Shown here piece after piece: positions 33,831-60,962 of a stretch of 64,000 nucleotides of DNA. The DNA comes from Tritonibacter mobilis (GTDB lineage Bacteria; Pseudomonadota; Alphaproteobacteria; Rhodobacterales; Rhodobacteraceae), in NCBI RefSeq assembly GCF_001681715.1, contig NZ_LNWY01000014.1, positions 124,001-188,000 of the forward strand, in the 5' to 3' direction. Numbering within the stretch: position 1 is the first letter of the stretch; each line of letters begins with the position of its first letter. The translations under genes and the position numbers were made by a program. The notes under the pieces are model-generated. The model searched no databases and had not been told where the DNA came from. It saw nothing but the letters and a program-made list of their open reading frames with translations.

Positions 33831-33862
33831 GAAAAACCGCCGATCTTTCGACCGGCGGTTTT
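33831..33862 (-). terminator. Terminator of the original tRNA-Leu gene
   Basis: A perfect 10-bp stem AAAACCGCCG/CGGCGGTTTT with a 10-base loop lies 25 bases beyond the CCA end of the tRNA-Leu fragment on the minus strand, and is followed there by a T-run. It belonged to the intact tRNA transcript. Confidence 0.75.
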
Positions 33863-33887
33863 CTCAAGCGAAAGCAATGCTTTGCGA

Positions 33888-33942
33888 TGGTACCCAAGGC
33901 CGGACTCGAACCGGCACGCTGTCACCAGCGGGGGATTTTGAA
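33888..33942 (-). repeat. attL: 3' fragment of tRNA-Leu(CAA)
   Basis: Read on the minus strand, this stretch is the 3' part of a leucine tRNA. It starts at the anticodon loop TTCAAAA, continues with the 3' side of the anticodon stem, the variable arm, the T-arm GCCGGTTCGAGTCCGGC, the acceptor strand CTTGGGTA and an encoded CCA. The 5' half is absent: sequence just upstream does not form a D-arm, and the 5' anticodon stem does not match. This is the pattern left at the distal end after phage integration with crossover in the anticodon loop. Confidence 0.88.
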
Positions 33943-44419: not shown

Positions 44420-45115
44420 TTACGCTTTTTTACGGCTCCTCAGCCTGTTCACCAGCGTTTGCAACTGGTACCGCGATTTAAGAATCTCTTTTGCCAGACC
44501 AATAGAGTCCTCCGACTCGTTCTCTCCGATATCTAGATAGTTCTTCGCTGTAATATGCGCTGCATCATTTCCCAGCGCCTTGAGTTCACCCATCGCTTCA
44601 AAGAGTTCATGAGGCATAGAGATTTTATTCTTTAGCGTTTCCAATCGATCATGAAGTGTTTTTCCAGTAGCGTCACAATCTTCACATAACTCTTCCAGTA
44701 GTCTGCGAACCATCATGGCAGCCGCCCTGTATGCTCCGACTGAATGACACAGGATTGCTTCTTCTAAGGTTGTTTTCAGACGTTCCGGGATGTCGGTATT
44801 GTCATAGTCGATGACCTCAGGCGGGAATGACTTAACTAGAGTTGGCTTAACCCAGCTATTTGTCGTTATCGCAAACACAAGTCCGCGGCACTCACCGTTG
44901 GGGCATACTCTGATCCCAGCTACGAAACCTTCACTTTCGCTGTCTTCGATCTTCTTGTGTTTGTACCAGCGTATGCCACTCGAAACCCCCGAGAATGTAC
45001 CAATATGCCGGCAGTGAGGACATCGCATACTAATTGATCCAAATAGATTTTCTTCTTTTTCAATAATTCCATCAGGCTGAAGAAGATTGGCGTTAACGAA
45101 CTGGATTTCGTGCAT
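44420..45115 (-). CDS. DUF4145 protein with Cys4 zinc motif (moron)
   Basis: A 231-aa protein inserted between V/PAAR and W, where P2 has no gene. Cysteines 32, 35, 71 and 76 (CPHC and CPNGEC) look like a zinc site. Residues about 120-210 are helical and of DUF4145 type, with EAILCHSVGAYRAAAMMVRR and ALGNDAAHIT. The gene is visibly AT-richer than its neighbours. Domains of this kind occur fused to restriction-type and other defence proteins, so a superinfection-defence role is a fair hypothesis. It has no known virion role. Confidence 0.8.
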   Translation of the reverse strand: MHEIQFVNANLLQPDGIIEKEENLFGSISMRCPHCRHIGTFSGVSSGIRWYKHKKIEDSESEGFVAGIRVCPNGECRGLVFAITTNSWVKPTLVKSFPPEVIDYDNTDIPERLKTTLEEAILCHSVGAYRAAAMMVRRLLEELCEDCDATGKTLHDRLETLKNKISMPHELFEAMGELKALGNDAAHITAKNYLDIGENESEDSIGLAKEILKSRYQLQTLVNRLRSRKKA

Positions 45116-55962: not shown

Positions 55963-57252
55963 TCACCTTACGATAGGATCGAGCACTGACCCAGCTTCAT
56001 AACCTACAAGGCGAGAGTGGAGACGACTGATTTCCCGCTCGGTGAGAGAAGACAGGCAGTCAGCGACGAACCGAGCTAGGCTTTCCGAAAGATCGATGAG
56101 GTATTCCAATCGCGGCGGCAAATAGTTCGGGACCTTGCGGTTGCCGACATCACCCCAACAAGTATCATTCATAATCATCTGAAAGAGTTCGCGCAGTATC
56201 CTTTCTTGCCCTTTCTGCTGGGCCGCCAAGGATGGGTTTGAGATAATATAATCTCTAGCCATCGTTTTTAATAGTAGGACTTTTCGCTCAGTTTCCGGTG
56301 GAACATCTATCGACATAGGCCACTTTAACTTGGTTTGCTGGATGAAGTTGCCCACAAGCGCAGACGTCATCTGTCGCAGTCCTACCCGGACGCTACGACT
56401 ACCATCGTATCTTTGTTGCAAAATTTCTTGATAGAGATCTAGTTGCTCAATGAGCTGTGCGAGAGCTTCTTGAAGAACTTCGATCGCGTTCTCAGGTCCA
56501 CCATGCCACTTTTTTGCTGTACGATGAACGATCTGGAGCTGCTCATCCTGGTCGTTTAGGATTTTCGTCCATGGAATAAGGTTACACCGGTGAAAATCCT
56601 CCAAGTCGTGGACGGAATACGCGATGTCATCAGCCCAATCCATGAGGGCCGCTTCTGGAGACGGAACGTCTTCTTTCTGACCCTTTCGAGCCCATTCAAA
56701 CTCGTCTTTCTCGCTAGCATACGCAGACCATTTCTTCGATTTATTCGGATTGTGCGCATCCCTGAGCCACGGGTACTTGAGAACGCCACAAGCTACCGCT
56801 CGAGTAAGGTCCAGACCGTCTGTTTCATTCCATCTGACTGCTAGCTTGGTGATGATTCTGAACGTTTGTGCGTTGCCTTCGTACCCTTCTTCACCTGCCT
56901 GCTGAACGAGATCATTAAGAGTGTATTCGCCCTTATGACCGAAAGGTGGATGTCCCAAGTCATGGGCAAGGCTTGCAGCCGCAACCACCTCAGGATCTAG
57001 CTGAGGACATTGTATGTTTCTTTCTTCGCACTTTCGAAGCAGATGTTGGCTAAGCCTTCGACCGATTTGAGCAACTTTGTGCGTGTGTTGCTGACGCGTA
57101 TGAAATATGTCCTCTTCCCCAGCCCGCACAATCTGCGTCACACCGGCCAACCTCTGAAAATATGAGGAATATAAAATTCTATCGTGATCAGTCTCAAATG
57201 GCCGGCGCTGGTCGCGTACACCAGCGCCGGAAAAACGATCCATTCTCATCAT
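55963..57252 (-). CDS. dGTPase-like HD-domain dNTP triphosphohydrolase
   Basis: A 429-aa protein of the deoxyguanosinetriphosphate triphosphohydrolase family. HD metal ligands are His56 (QQHTHKVAQIGR), His97-Asp98 (ASLAHDLGHPPFGHKGE) and a later Asp in ALMDWADDIAYSVHDLED. The N-terminal RRPFETDHDRILYSSYFQRL is also typical. It would cleave dNTPs to deoxynucleosides and triphosphate. Base composition is lower in GC than flanking phage genes. It follows a small wHTH gene by 37 bp. Bacterial dGTPases can protect cells by depleting dNTPs during phage infection, so a lysogen-protecting role is a reasonable inference. Confidence 0.88.
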   Translation of the reverse strand: MMRMDRFSGAGVRDQRRPFETDHDRILYSSYFQRLAGVTQIVRAGEEDIFHTRQQHTHKVAQIGRRLSQHLLRKCEERNIQCPQLDPEVVAAASLAHDLGHPPFGHKGEYTLNDLVQQAGEEGYEGNAQTFRIITKLAVRWNETDGLDLTRAVACGVLKYPWLRDAHNPNKSKKWSAYASEKDEFEWARKGQKEDVPSPEAALMDWADDIAYSVHDLEDFHRCNLIPWTKILNDQDEQLQIVHRTAKKWHGGPENAIEVLQEALAQLIEQLDLYQEILQQRYDGSRSVRVGLRQMTSALVGNFIQQTKLKWPMSIDVPPETERKVLLLKTMARDYIISNPSLAAQQKGQERILRELFQMIMNDTCWGDVGNRKVPNYLPPRLEYLIDLSESLARFVADCLSSLTEREISRLHSRLVGYEAGSVLDPIVR

Positions 57253-58249: not shown

Positions 58250-58663
58250 TCAGCCCTTGGCCCGGGTGATGTGGATCTCCATGCCCTGCGCGGCCAAGAT
58301 CGCTTTCTTGAGCTTGAACACCTCGGTTTCATGGCCTTTTCGATCCTCGATCACGGTCACGCCGAGACGGTTGTCGACATAAACAAAGTCTGCGCGATAG
58401 ACGCGCTGCTTTGCTCCGCTGTCGGTCATGATCGGGCCGTCACGTCCGGTCAGGCCGATATCGACCTGGCGACGCAGGCCGCAGATTTCGCCCGCCTCCT
58501 GCAGCAGTTTTAATTCCTGCCAGCGTTGGGCCTCTGTCTTGCTGTCGTGCGTTACGCCGTCTGCCGTTGTGGTCCGTTTGGTGCCGCGCACCCGGCGCTT
58601 ATCTTCCCCTATCGAGGGGAGTTGGGCGTCCCTGTATTCCTCTGCTGTCATGCGTTCCGTCAT
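58250..58663 (-). CDS. DUF1064 family nuclease-like protein
   Basis: A 137-aa protein. The DUF1064 pattern begins KRRVRGTKRTTTADGVTHDS, continues KTEAQRWQELKLLQEAGEI and ends with YRADFVYVDNRLGVTVIEDR and KGHETEVFKLKKAI. The Glu, Asp and (E/D)xK residues fit a PD-(D/E)XK-type active site (KTEAQR; YRADF; IEDRKG). A Holliday-junction-resolvase-like role in replication or recombination is likely. The start at 58663 has AAAGG upstream and overlaps the next gene by four bases. Confidence 0.85.
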   Translation of the reverse strand: MTERMTAEEYRDAQLPSIGEDKRRVRGTKRTTTADGVTHDSKTEAQRWQELKLLQEAGEICGLRRQVDIGLTGRDGPIMTDSGAKQRVYRADFVYVDNRLGVTVIEDRKGHETEVFKLKKAILAAQGMEIHITRAKG

Positions 58664-59088
58664 TGCGATGCCTTTCTCTTCTTGGCCTCTGCCTCCATTC
58701 GCTCTCGAAGGTCCTGCTCGAAGAACTGTGCGAGCGAGATCGTCTGAACCCACCCACCTGTTTTGCCCGTGTCGGTACTGCGCGACCGGCGCGGCAAGCC
58801 CATGACGCCGGCACGTGAACCAATCGCAGAGCGGTGCAAGTATCCGAAATGCTGCGCCATTTCTGTCGAATTGACCCCGGCGAGCCACATCCGGCGAAAC
58901 GTCTCGTTGTCACAGAGCTGTTTGCGCACTTTCGCGCGGCTGGGCAGACCAAGTGTGCGCGCCTTGGAGCTGATCGCCTGCCGGGTCACGCCCAGCGCCT
59001 GGGCAATGCGTTCTGTTGGGATATCCTCGCGAGCCCATAGCGGAGCGAGCGTTTCACGGGTGATGTTCTTGAGGAGCTGCGCGGTCAT
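58660..59088 (-). CDS. Tandem GcrA-like HTH protein
   Basis: A 142-aa protein with two similar helix-turn-helix units. Residues 13-52 read LAPLWAREDIPTERIAQALG then VTRQAISSKARTLGLPSR; residues 62-102 read FRRMWLAGVNSTEMAQHFGY then LHRSAIGSRAGVMGLPRR. The pattern W-x7-IA-x-LG-x3-A-x4-K/RA-x2-LGLP recalls the DNA-binding part of the alphaproteobacterial cell-cycle regulator GcrA. A basic, acidic mixed C-terminus follows. It may redirect host transcription or regulate early genes. Confidence 0.7.
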   Translation of the reverse strand: MTAQLLKNITRETLAPLWAREDIPTERIAQALGVTRQAISSKARTLGLPSRAKVRKQLCDNETFRRMWLAGVNSTEMAQHFGYLHRSAIGSRAGVMGLPRRSRSTDTGKTGGWVQTISLAQFFEQDLRERMEAEAKKRKASQ

Positions 59089-59093
59089 GACGA

Positions 59094-59666
59094 TCACCCC
59101 ATGCCCAGGCATTCTTTGTACATATCGAGTACCGCCTCTTCCTCGGCGATATCGTTTTCGTCGCGCTTGCGCAGCGCGATCAGCTTGCGCAATACCTTGA
59201 CGTCGTATCCGCGCCCCTTGGCCTCTGCCATGACCTCTTTCTGTTGCTCGGCAATGGCCTTCTTCTCTTCGTCCAGGCGCTCAAACCGTTCGACGAATTG
59301 GCGTAGCTCACTCGCATTGGCGCGATAGGCGTTGTCTTTGGCGCCTTCCCTGACAGCGCGGTCCTCGGCTGTCTCTCGCATATGGGTGGTCTTCTGCCCG
59401 GCCACCTGGTCGGCAGCCATGGCAAACAGACGCGCTGGCACCTCATTCGCGACAATCTCACGACGTCCGACGTGATCAGATGCGGTCACCACGCCCAGCG
59501 CCTCGAGCGCATCTATCAGGCGGGCTGCTTTGTTGTACCCTATGGCGAGGGACCGCTGCACATGTGTCGTGCTGGCCTTTTGGTCCTCTATGAGGATCTG
59601 AGCCGCCTTTGCTAGGAGCGCGAAATCAACCGGGGTCTTTTGCAGTTCCTTGTATGCGTCAACCAC
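59094..59666 (-). CDS. FtsK-gamma / GapR (DUF2312) fusion protein
   Basis: A 190-aa protein with two recognisable parts. Residues about 18-72 match the winged-helix gamma domain of FtsK/SpoIIIE (AAQILIEDQKASTTHVQRSL, then AIGYNKAARLIDALEALGVV), which in FtsK reads KOPS sequences. Residues about 112-190 match GapR/DUF2312 (ELRQFVERFERLDEEKKAIA; EVMAEAKGRGYDVKVLRKLI), an alphaproteobacterial protein that encloses overtwisted DNA. No FtsK motor domain is present. A charged linker joins them. The gene lies between replication and resolvase-like genes, so a role in replication, topology or host chromosome interaction is likely. Confidence 0.85.
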   Translation of the reverse strand: MVDAYKELQKTPVDFALLAKAAQILIEDQKASTTHVQRSLAIGYNKAARLIDALEALGVVTASDHVGRREIVANEVPARLFAMAADQVAGQKTTHMRETAEDRAVREGAKDNAYRANASELRQFVERFERLDEEKKAIAEQQKEVMAEAKGRGYDVKVLRKLIALRKRDENDIAEEEAVLDMYKECLGMG

Positions 59667-59958
59667 GGCGCTTCCTTTCCTGTTCTGCTTTCAGGAGTTG
59701 ACCGGCGAACTTGAGCGCGCGCGCCATATCTCCGGCATGTGGGTGTTGTTGTGGTTTCCGGCTCAACCAGTTCTGCGTTCGATGGGCCGCATAGATCTCA
59801 TCGAGCGTGTTGAGCCGCGTCTTGCGCTCTACGGTAGACACCGGGCCTTTGCAGGGTTGTGGGGCACGGATCATGCAATCACCGGCCACAAGGTCGACCG
59901 TGACAACCACAGCGCCGAAACGGTGCCCGTGTGCGGCAGGATCAGCGTGCACGCTCAT
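59659..59958 (-). CDS. Hypothetical early phage protein
   Basis: A 99-aa protein. The N-terminal part (HRFGAVVVTVDLVAGDCMIR) is beta-like, the C-terminal part is helical and basic, with RTQNWLSRKPQQHPHAGDMA. No family is recognised. ATGA overlap with the replication gene upstream and an 8-bp overlap with the FtsK-gamma/GapR gene downstream show it belongs to the early operon. Confidence 0.65.
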   Translation of the reverse strand: MSVHADPAAHGHRFGAVVVTVDLVAGDCMIRAPQPCKGPVSTVERKTRLNTLDEIYAAHRTQNWLSRKPQQHPHAGDMARALKFAGQLLKAEQERKRRG

Positions 59959-60962
59959 TGCGCCACCTCGAGCATGGCCCGTGCGTCTGCATCGGAGATC
60001 CCAAGCCCAGCGCGACGGCAATCCTCGGCAGTCACGGTACGGGCGGTGAGGCACTTGGTGACCGTGTCGCGGCTGATCTTGCCGAACATGAAATGCCCGG
60101 AACCAGCCTTGCCAACCTCAAGGATCGTCTTGCCCCACTGCTCGACGAATGCAGCCGCCTCAGCGCTGGGCGTGGATTTCTGGGCCGGGATGTAAGCCCG
60201 CCAGAAATCATCCGCGAAGAACCGTTCGCTGCGCCGGATGTATTTCGGATCATTGCCCCGCTGCTCGGCGGCATAGGCGCGGGCAGCGTCGAGGATCTGG
60301 TCAGATGTTGCACCGGTGGCCAGGGCCTTGCTGATCGCCTTTCGAGTTGCCTGCGCTGTCCCCAGCTTGGGAAACACGCGCTCAAACTCCCTCAACAAAT
60401 CATCAGAACAATCATCAAGCGTGGGCGCGGGCTCAGCCGCGCAACTTGTTTGTTTTTCTTTTTGTCTGTTGTTCTTTCTTATGGGGCCGGTTTTTCCGGC
60501 GGGCGGGGTCAACCGGCGGGCGGGTTTTTCCGGCTCACGGTGAGAGGGTTCGACCGGCTGCGCACCGGTAGCCGGTTTTTCCGGCTCACGGTGGTTACCG
60601 CTTTCCCCTGCATCTTGTGGCTCACAGCCCCCAGCTGACACTGCATCTGGTGCCTGCGGTTCGTCGAACACTTCCCAGATATAACCTTCCAAGCGCCCGT
60701 TTTCGCCGTTCTTGGCATGAACGCGCAAATAGCCTGCCTCGATCACCTCACGGCGGATGCGCTGCCACTTGTCTTTTTTACAGCCCAGGATGCGCTGACA
60801 TTCGGAAACGTAGAACGTCCAACTGCCACTGCATGACATGATGTAACAAAGCAGGAGCCGCGCCTCTGGCGAGATCTCCACATCGCGGATCAGAGCGTTC
60901 GGGATTGTCGAGAATGCGGTACGGCGGCGAATGCTGACCGATGCCTCTTTCTTGGCCGTCAT
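59955..60962 (-). CDS. Phage replication initiator-like protein
   Basis: A 335-aa protein. The N-terminal domain (residues about 10-105) is a winged-helix of the replisome-organiser type: IRRRTAFSTIPNALIRDVEI, SPEARLLLCYIMSCSGSW, and KKDKWQRIRREVIEAGYLRV. A low-complexity Pro/Glu/Lys middle with repeated EPEKPA follows, then a helical C-terminal domain (DDLLREFERVFPKLG). This resembles lambda O or DnaD-like initiators, with the origin possibly inside the gene at the DNA repeats. The ATG at 60962 has AGGGGGCGG upstream. Confidence 0.78.
   Translation of the reverse strand: MTAKKEASVSIRRRTAFSTIPNALIRDVEISPEARLLLCYIMSCSGSWTFYVSECQRILGCKKDKWQRIRREVIEAGYLRVHAKNGENGRLEGYIWEVFDEPQAPDAVSAGGCEPQDAGESGNHREPEKPATGAQPVEPSHREPEKPARRLTPPAGKTGPIRKNNRQKEKQTSCAAEPAPTLDDCSDDLLREFERVFPKLGTAQATRKAISKALATGATSDQILDAARAYAAEQRGNDPKYIRRSERFFADDFWRAYIPAQKSTPSAEAAAFVEQWGKTILEVGKAGSGHFMFGKISRDTVTKCLTARTVTAEDCRRAGLGISDADARAMLEVAQ
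60489..60585. repeat. Iteron-like repeats inside the replication gene
   Basis: Three exact copies of GGTTTTTCCGGC at 60489-60500, 60523-60534 and 60574-60585. The last two extend to GGTTTTTCCGGCTCACGGTG. The arrangement inside an initiator gene recalls the lambda origin. Confidence 0.5.

Follow-up and report, generated by a model that had tools for sequence, protein, structure and literature searches.

An FtsK gamma domain fused to a GapR domain in a prophage of Tritonibacter mobilis: a candidate address-tagged DNA clamp

What could a phage gain from a small protein in which the gamma domain of FtsK is joined to a GapR domain and the FtsK motor is missing? The question was raised by one gene in the window, by which we mean the whole stretch of 64,000 nt from Tritonibacter mobilis that was analysed (contig NZ_LNWY01000014.1, positions 124,001 to 188,000). 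A 190-aa ORF on the minus strand (59094-59666) runs from a GTG start at 59666 to the end of its stop codon at 59094, and the Shine-Dalgarno-like AGGAAAGGA lies a few bases 5′ of the GTG. Pfam, PHROGs and PDB sequence matches identify its product as a gamma-GapR fusion protein. Pfam matched FtsK_gamma (PF09397) at residues 17-73 (E 2.4e-20; 72.4 bits against a cut-off of 30.6) and GapR_DNA-bd (PF10073) at residues 118-188 (E 6.3e-31; 106.3 bits against a cut-off of 22.6), and none of the five families among the matches listed was the FtsK_SpoIIIE motor (ATPase) domain. The preliminary description had placed a gamma domain at residues ~18-72 and GapR at ~112-190, and had noted the absence of a motor, without naming a strand; the profile search agrees on all three points, both domain scores lying above their cut-offs. 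Like the gamma of FtsK/SpoIIIE (PF09397; 2j5p, 2ve8/2ve9), that of the fusion is a nearly full domain with the KOPS-reading residues, one of them as Asp, but FtsK/SpoIIIE have a motor, whereas the fusion has none and is only 190 aa long. By its domain content, a protein without the motor is not an FtsK.

The gamma winged helix (59448-59618, minus strand) is supported by Pfam, by residue alignment and by the structure model, and its PDB sequence matches were FtsK gamma 2j5p (E 1e-10) and also 2ve8. The AlphaFold monomer model of the fusion, built on a 10-row alignment, has a mean pLDDT of 72; its gamma fold is confident and superposes on the KOPS-bound FtsK gamma 2ve9 at 0.6 Å over 57-58 columns. 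The linker of residues 74-117 (59316-59447, minus strand) was delimited on the same model, and its second half is mostly low-confidence structure, with pLDDT < 50 at residues 94-99 and 101-116. The GapR DNA-binding clamp domain (59103-59315, minus strand) was modelled as helical, and no GapR chain appeared among the 50 Foldseek matches listed; therefore this half rests on sequence, namely on Pfam, on NCBIfam and on the PDB sequences 6cfx (E 1e-23), 6ozx and others. The fusion scored 98.8 bits for the NCBIfam GapR model PRK13694, above the cut-off of 94, and 80.6 bits for the equivalog NF052541 (Caulobacter-type nucleoid protein GapR), below the cut-off of 140. The host has its own GapR, and these scores mark the fusion as a GapR-domain protein and not as a GapR ortholog. 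Both halves are under purifying selection: with few changes in each comparison, dN/dS against the relatives L002 and L003 was 0.10 and 0.11 for the whole fusion, 0.11 and 0.23 for the gamma half, and 0.05 and 0.03 for the GapR half.

The gene lies within a 36.5-kb prophage bounded by two exact copies of a 94-bp repeat, one at 33849 and one at 70332 if the window numbering is carried on along the contig. The left attachment repeat (33849-33942) is identical to the repeat 36.5 kb on, beyond the window; the latter overlaps tRNA-Leu(CAA), and the integrase gene is found just inside it (Phage_integrase, 38.4 bits against a cut-off of 27.1). Xer-dependent integration at dif without an integrase of its own was considered and discarded in view of this integrase gene and the 94-bp repeats at tRNA-Leu. 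Repressor and Cro-type genes, a methyltransferase gene, a replication initiator gene and a small ORF precede the fusion. After it come a gene for a GcrA-like protein, one for a resolvase-like protein of the DUF1064 family, one for a late activator and one for a dGTPase-like protein. The upstream phage replication initiation protein (HTH_36; 59955-60962) is encoded on the minus strand, as is the fusion, and so is the small ORF between them (59659-59958), whose 3′ end overlaps the start of the fusion by 8 bases and which gave no family match; by eye, a look-alike of this ORF stands at the same place in the relatives L006 and L004. Directly downstream on the minus strand are the GcrA-like regulator (58660-59085; Pfam GcrA E 4e-7, just above that cut-off and below the NCBIfam one) and the DUF1064, Holliday-junction-resolvase-like protein (58250-58660), identified by a profile match. 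Judged by eye, the order in L006 is methyltransferase-like, initiator-like, small ORF, fusion, resolvase-like and activator-like, with no GcrA-like gene, and L004 is similar with a different-looking gene at the initiator place. The gene thus sits in a replication module or operon of a phage, in agreement with the preliminary description of a phage protein. From this gene order, the fusion would be expressed jointly with the module and is therefore most likely made at the time of replication.

Several other genes of this prophage and its relatives may be recorded here. The GcrA-like gene and the fusion place two relatives of Caulobacter cell-cycle and nucleoid factors side by side in a phage operon. 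The dGTP triphosphohydrolase-like gene (55963-57252, minus strand) matched the PADLOC dGTPase model at E 6e-92, stayed below the NCBIfam cut-off for anti-phage dGTPases, and is a possible defence gene, and 44420-45115 (minus strand), within the structural-gene region, weakly resembles PD-T7-4, another defence protein (E 1.5e-8). Farther along the contig, an SDH/ClpP-type serine protease gene adjoins the repressor gene (L053:1992-2930, or 63992-64930 continued, plus strand; above the Pfam SDH_protease cut-off and below that of NCBIfam), and a phage DNA polymerase III beta sliding clamp (TIGR00663) is encoded at L053:4822-5967 (66822-67967 continued, plus strand). A gene annotated as beta subunit also lies directly 3′ of the GapR-matching gene of Paracoccus phage Psul1.

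N1296 of E. coli FtsK gamma has a role in KOPS reading, and the fusion has N45 at this position. R1300, E1303 and E1306 are described as contributing to the reading of KOPS (PMC2680272), and their equivalents are R49, D52 and E55, the Asp being a conservative replacement. This fits the earlier statement that the gamma is of the KOPS-reading type. We aligned 31 motorless phage gamma stretches: 21 come from GapR fusions, among which near copies are frequent, 6 from RdgC fusions and 2 from Gordonia and Mycobacterium phages, and 2 are stand-alone gammas. With near copies included, N1296 was retained in 28 of the 31, R1300 in 27 and E1306 in all 31, and an acidic residue, E or D, stood at the E1303 position in 28; in place of R1300, L015 has Gln and L078 has Ala. 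The Arg equivalent to the XerD-contacting R1289 was kept in 29/31.

The C-terminal 71 residues of the fusion belong to the same family as GapR of Caulobacter and other Alphaproteobacteria (PF10073), with the DNA-contact lysines largely kept; GapR itself has neither gamma nor linker, both of which the fusion adds on the N-terminal side. The DNA contacts of GapR are given as K34, K42, K49, K56, K59, K60, R63 and K66 (PMC7498317). Six of these eight positions are Lys in the fusion, K59 is replaced by Arg and R63 by Ala, and the loss of R63 to Ala is found in host GapR too. Over the GapR core, contact positions included, the fusion and host GapR are identical at 67 of 70 residues, with a dS of 1.26 and a dN/dS of 0.04; the best of the 81 gamma-less GapR loci compared reached 64/70, in collections that may omit host-near records. 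Mixed rings of fusion and host GapR are plausible from this likeness.

That the fusion is a one-off, as the preliminary description might suggest when it speaks of a new kind of nucleoid or replication factor, is not supported; the same architecture occurs in the PHROGs family phrog_4212, in Ruegeria phage 45A6, in Rhodobacter phage RcMamaDuck and in 15 of the 47 viral-contig loci that carry a relative of the fusion (gamma and GapR in one ORF, judged by motif). Seven of these 15 carry a further N-terminal domain, while 3/47 have this domain with GapR and no gamma and 29/47 have GapR with neither. The independent cases are fewer than 15, since L001 repeats the window copy exactly and L006-L013 count as near copies. 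The unnamed phrog_4212 matched the fusion at E 5e-47 in two stretches, best at profile positions 251-351, and the protein of phage 45A6, in which Pfam matches both gamma and GapR and which is annotated ‘cell division protein FtsK’, spans positions 1-351. Thus in phrog_4212 and 45A6 gamma is followed by GapR in one protein, as in the fusion, but the 45A6 protein has an extra N-terminal domain that the fusion lacks. The RcMamaDuck protein (L052:5623-6945; 441 aa) has two gamma stretches and then GapR, the first stretch being degenerate at the KOPS-reading positions. In L006 (4566-4980), L024, L032 and L034 as well, GapR is fused to an N-terminal domain of ~130 aa, whether or not gamma is present; PHROGs assigns this domain to the unnamed phrog_1229 in L006 and phrog_15291 in L024, and for the L006 protein the first 138 residues had no PDB match and Pfam gave only gamma and GapR. 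At least 80% of the fusion query was matched in one place in 13 phage records, one of them Psul1, which we rejected as a one-ORF fusion since its match crosses a stop. The architecture is present in members down to 49% identity.

In cellular genomes the fusion is scarce. Among the best 80 of 582 loci on genome contigs, three matched over both domains, in Phaeobacter sp. HF9A (L056), Celeribacter halophilus (L057) and Cypionkella (L078); of the 394 genomes from the host's family, 3 did so at E 1e-50, a strict threshold that can miss distant ones. The window's own copy was the only match over both domains among the matches listed for 385 genomes of the host's class, and 0 of 291 matching plasmid records had 80% of the fusion query. 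The gene is a rare accessory gene, and the cases with a named host are all Rhodobacterales. The preliminary description had allowed that this might prove a long-described family of known function; gamma-GapR is instead a phage family that stands in the databases without name or function. A 2025 paper (PMC12185513) presents GapR in a phage as a first. Our searches of the open-access literature showed no description of a gamma-GapR or gamma-RdgC fusion, which does not prove its absence from print. The fusion is real, recurrent and under purifying selection, an unnamed variant among GapR-domain proteins that adds an FtsK domain as a proposed address tag, and we infer its mechanism from domains and residues.

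We propose, at a probability of about one half, that the fusion is an address-tagged DNA clamp, in which gamma would deliver a GapR-type ring to KOPS-like sites. GapR proteins form tetrameric rings on DNA, with a preference for overtwisted DNA, and the GapR half would likewise encircle the double helix as a tetramer, either of its own chains or of these together with host GapR; up to four gamma winged helices would be held on this ring by the flexible linker. By binding the host KOPS octamer GGGCAGGG or a close relative, the gammas would set the ring on that site, or keep it there, with a fixed orientation, much as gamma does with the motor ring of FtsK. The gene has the phage replication initiator and a resolvase-like gene as neighbours, and its product would most likely serve DNA topology and recombination during phage replication. 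Its sites may be the few KOPS that phage DNA carries; the counts speak rather for the several hundred of the host chromosome. In favour of this reading are the scores of both domains, the kept KOPS-reading and GapR contact residues, the fit of the gamma model to 2ve9, the near-identical core of host GapR, the abundance of KOPS in the host, the neighbouring initiator and resolvase-like genes with their like placement in L006 and L004, and the fusions of gamma to RdgC treated below.

The host carries the KOPS code in abundance. Its genome has 678 copies of GGGCAGGG against 155 of the reversed controls, and 952 of GGGNAGGG against 528 of the reversed control. Among the first 100 places listed, GGGCAGGG was confined to one strand on contigs C2 and C4 and lay mostly on one strand on C1 and C3. 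An 80-kb stretch that includes the prophage has 14 GGGNAGGG, every one on the minus strand; three of these fall in the prophage, for which 5.1, 4.2 and 3.7 were expected under first-, second- and third-order models. KOPS were also counted in phage records, completely in RcMamaDuck and in Vibrio phage HY01, over 49.9 of 53.2 kb in 45A6 and over 50.0 of 61.8 kb in Pseudomonas phage CF24a. RcMamaDuck had 11 (7 and 4) where 9.3-9.8 (5.3-5.9 and 3.9-4.0) were expected, the 49.9 kb of 45A6 had 0 where 4.8-5.3 were expected, and HY01, which encodes an RdgC-gamma protein, had 0 and 1, as expected. CF24a, likewise with RdgC-gamma, had 1 and 10 where about 2 and about 3.5 were expected and was the sole enriched and polar case among the phages tested; polar KOPS in a prophage may also come from residence in a chromosome, so we do not build on this case. 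Nine fusion loci were counted, with L056 excluded and also L002 and L007-L013, which nearly duplicate L001 or L006; they had 2.58 KOPS per 10 kb, 20/21 on the majority strand, with 12 for the reversed control. The 27 GapR loci without gamma, from which L023, L027, L028, L034 and L045 were excluded, had 1.78 per 10 kb, 39/45 on the majority strand, with 26 for the control. The KOPS-to-control ratio was thus the same in both groups (21 to 12 and 45 to 26). KOPS enrichment on phage DNA as a general rule is not supported by the prophage, the four phage records and this comparison of 9 with 27 loci. A shared KOPS position in the replication module was rejected as well, the site in the methyltransferase gene common to L001, L002 and L056 being absent from L003.

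Hence the KOPS code is in the host and the reading residues are in the phage protein, and we saw no sign of phage DNA marked for the fusion. The idea that GapR-like clamps would sit at KOPS-like sites ahead of phage forks gains no support, with three GGGNAGGG in the prophage against 3.7-5.1 expected and fusion loci behaving like gamma-less loci. The octamer count in phage and host favours the other half of that early guess, the host chromosome with its abundant and polar GGGCAGGG, which holds the most numerous candidate targets of the fusion. We counted against the address-tagged clamp the lack of KOPS enrichment in the prophage, RcMamaDuck and 45A6, the likeness of fusion loci to gamma-less GapR loci, the replacement of E1303 by D52 and of R1300 in L015 and L078, and the rarity of the fusion among host species of the family. 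The strongest alternative is that the fusion interferes with the host: it would join host GapR rings, occupy KOPS, or both, and so disturb GapR or block FtsK loading, such that division stalls during phage replication. The near identity to host GapR (67/70) at a high dS would suit such a role, as would KOPS that are abundant in the host and not enriched in the prophage, and a neighbouring gene that resembles the cell-cycle regulator GcrA. However, Rhodobacterales GapRs are alike in any case (median identity 0.81 over the 81 loci compared), so that the closeness may mean only capture from a near host, and the gene sits among replication genes. We consider host interference unlikely, though it deserves more weight than the three other rivals discussed below.

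The address-tagged clamp would find a parallel in other phage proteins that carry gamma without the motor. A phage search with the gamma half returned 344 records, and 10 gamma-bearing proteins, chosen by annotation and not at random, were inspected. In six of the ten, a single ORF encodes RdgC and, at its C-terminal end, gamma (L188, L189, L190, L191, L196 and L197), from Vibrio phages K449, HY01, D80 and SHOU24, Pseudomonas phage CF24a and Achromobacter phage CF418P1. The RdgC part matches 2owy/2owl in the PDB, and in CF24a and HY01 genes for SSB, a helicase or a methylase are found close by. RdgC homologues are described as dimeric rings with a presumed DNA-binding pore (PMC11077077). Phage RdgC-gamma is thus, as is the fusion, a motorless gamma on a DNA-binding ring protein, but its gamma is C-terminal and its ring is RdgC where the fusion has GapR. 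A Burkholderia plasmid gene annotated as RdgC matches gamma as well. Small terminases, for their part, form rings. A small terminase with an N-terminal FtsK_gamma has been published for Bacillus phages Sam46/Sam112 (PMC8190038); it is an earlier case of a phage gamma joined, without the motor, to a different protein that handles DNA, although there the partner is a packaging protein and not GapR. FtsK itself is reported to be loaded as a hexamer once three gammas bind KOPS (PMC5052618). Because the gamma partners with known structure are rings, gamma may be an address tag for DNA-encircling rings, that is, a general module that would position rings on KOPS with a chosen polarity, whether or not DNA is translocated. 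We offer this analogy tentatively and at less than even odds, because there are exceptions. Two stand-alone Vibrio gammas of 112 and 164 aa lend no support to a ring rule. Neither do the Gordonia (346 aa) and Mycobacterium (355 aa) phage proteins, in both of which Pfam matches gamma alone and the gamma has Ala at N1296; gamma was the sole PDB match of the Mycobacterium protein, and the N-half of the Gordonia protein has a RusA-like label in PHROGs.

A sequence-specific transcription regulator at phage promoters, with gamma as the winged-helix DNA reader and GapR as a multimerising DNA-binding handle, would be a different use of the same two domains. The weaker Foldseek matches of the model were MarR-type regulators and a GcrA-like gene lies 3′ of the fusion, but the MarR matches are weak (E > 0.01, rmsd mostly > 7 Å) and KOPS have no common promoter position among the relatives. 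Other phages fuse gamma to RdgC, and we know of no role of RdgC as a promoter protein. A precedent may be seen in T4 DsbA, a possible recruiter of RNA polymerase to late promoters, which has been called a GapR homologue (PMC7824862). On balance a regulator seems to us somewhat less likely than host interference. It is improbable that gamma works on XerCD, as activator or competitor of XerD, for example in resolving phage or chromosome dimers. Recombination is reported to be activated when XerC carries no more of E. coli FtsK gamma than the nine residues 1289-1297 (PMC5052618), the fusion has RSLAIGYNK at the equivalent place, and the Arg equivalent to R1289 is widely kept. However, KOPS is bound by the same gamma surface (PMC5052618), so this conservation does not discriminate; moreover, the prophage lies between repeats at tRNA-Leu with an integrase inside and not at dif, and a GapR clamp would bring no obvious gain. 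A chance mosaic without joint function, two DNA-binding modules joined by phage recombination and tolerated, would suit the modular family, in which the N-domain or no partner at all accompanies GapR at many loci, but is the least probable reading of all, given purifying selection on both halves, the retained contact residues and an architecture that persists down to 49% identity and with two gamma stretches in RcMamaDuck.

If the address-tagged clamp is right, the two jobs of FtsK, site finding by gamma and pumping by the motor, would be split. The fusion would then offer a natural means of parking a topology-sensing clamp at sites whose position and orientation are set, and gamma as a general ring-addressing device would become testable. 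Moreover, phages of Alphaproteobacteria would read their host's own chromosome-orientation code.
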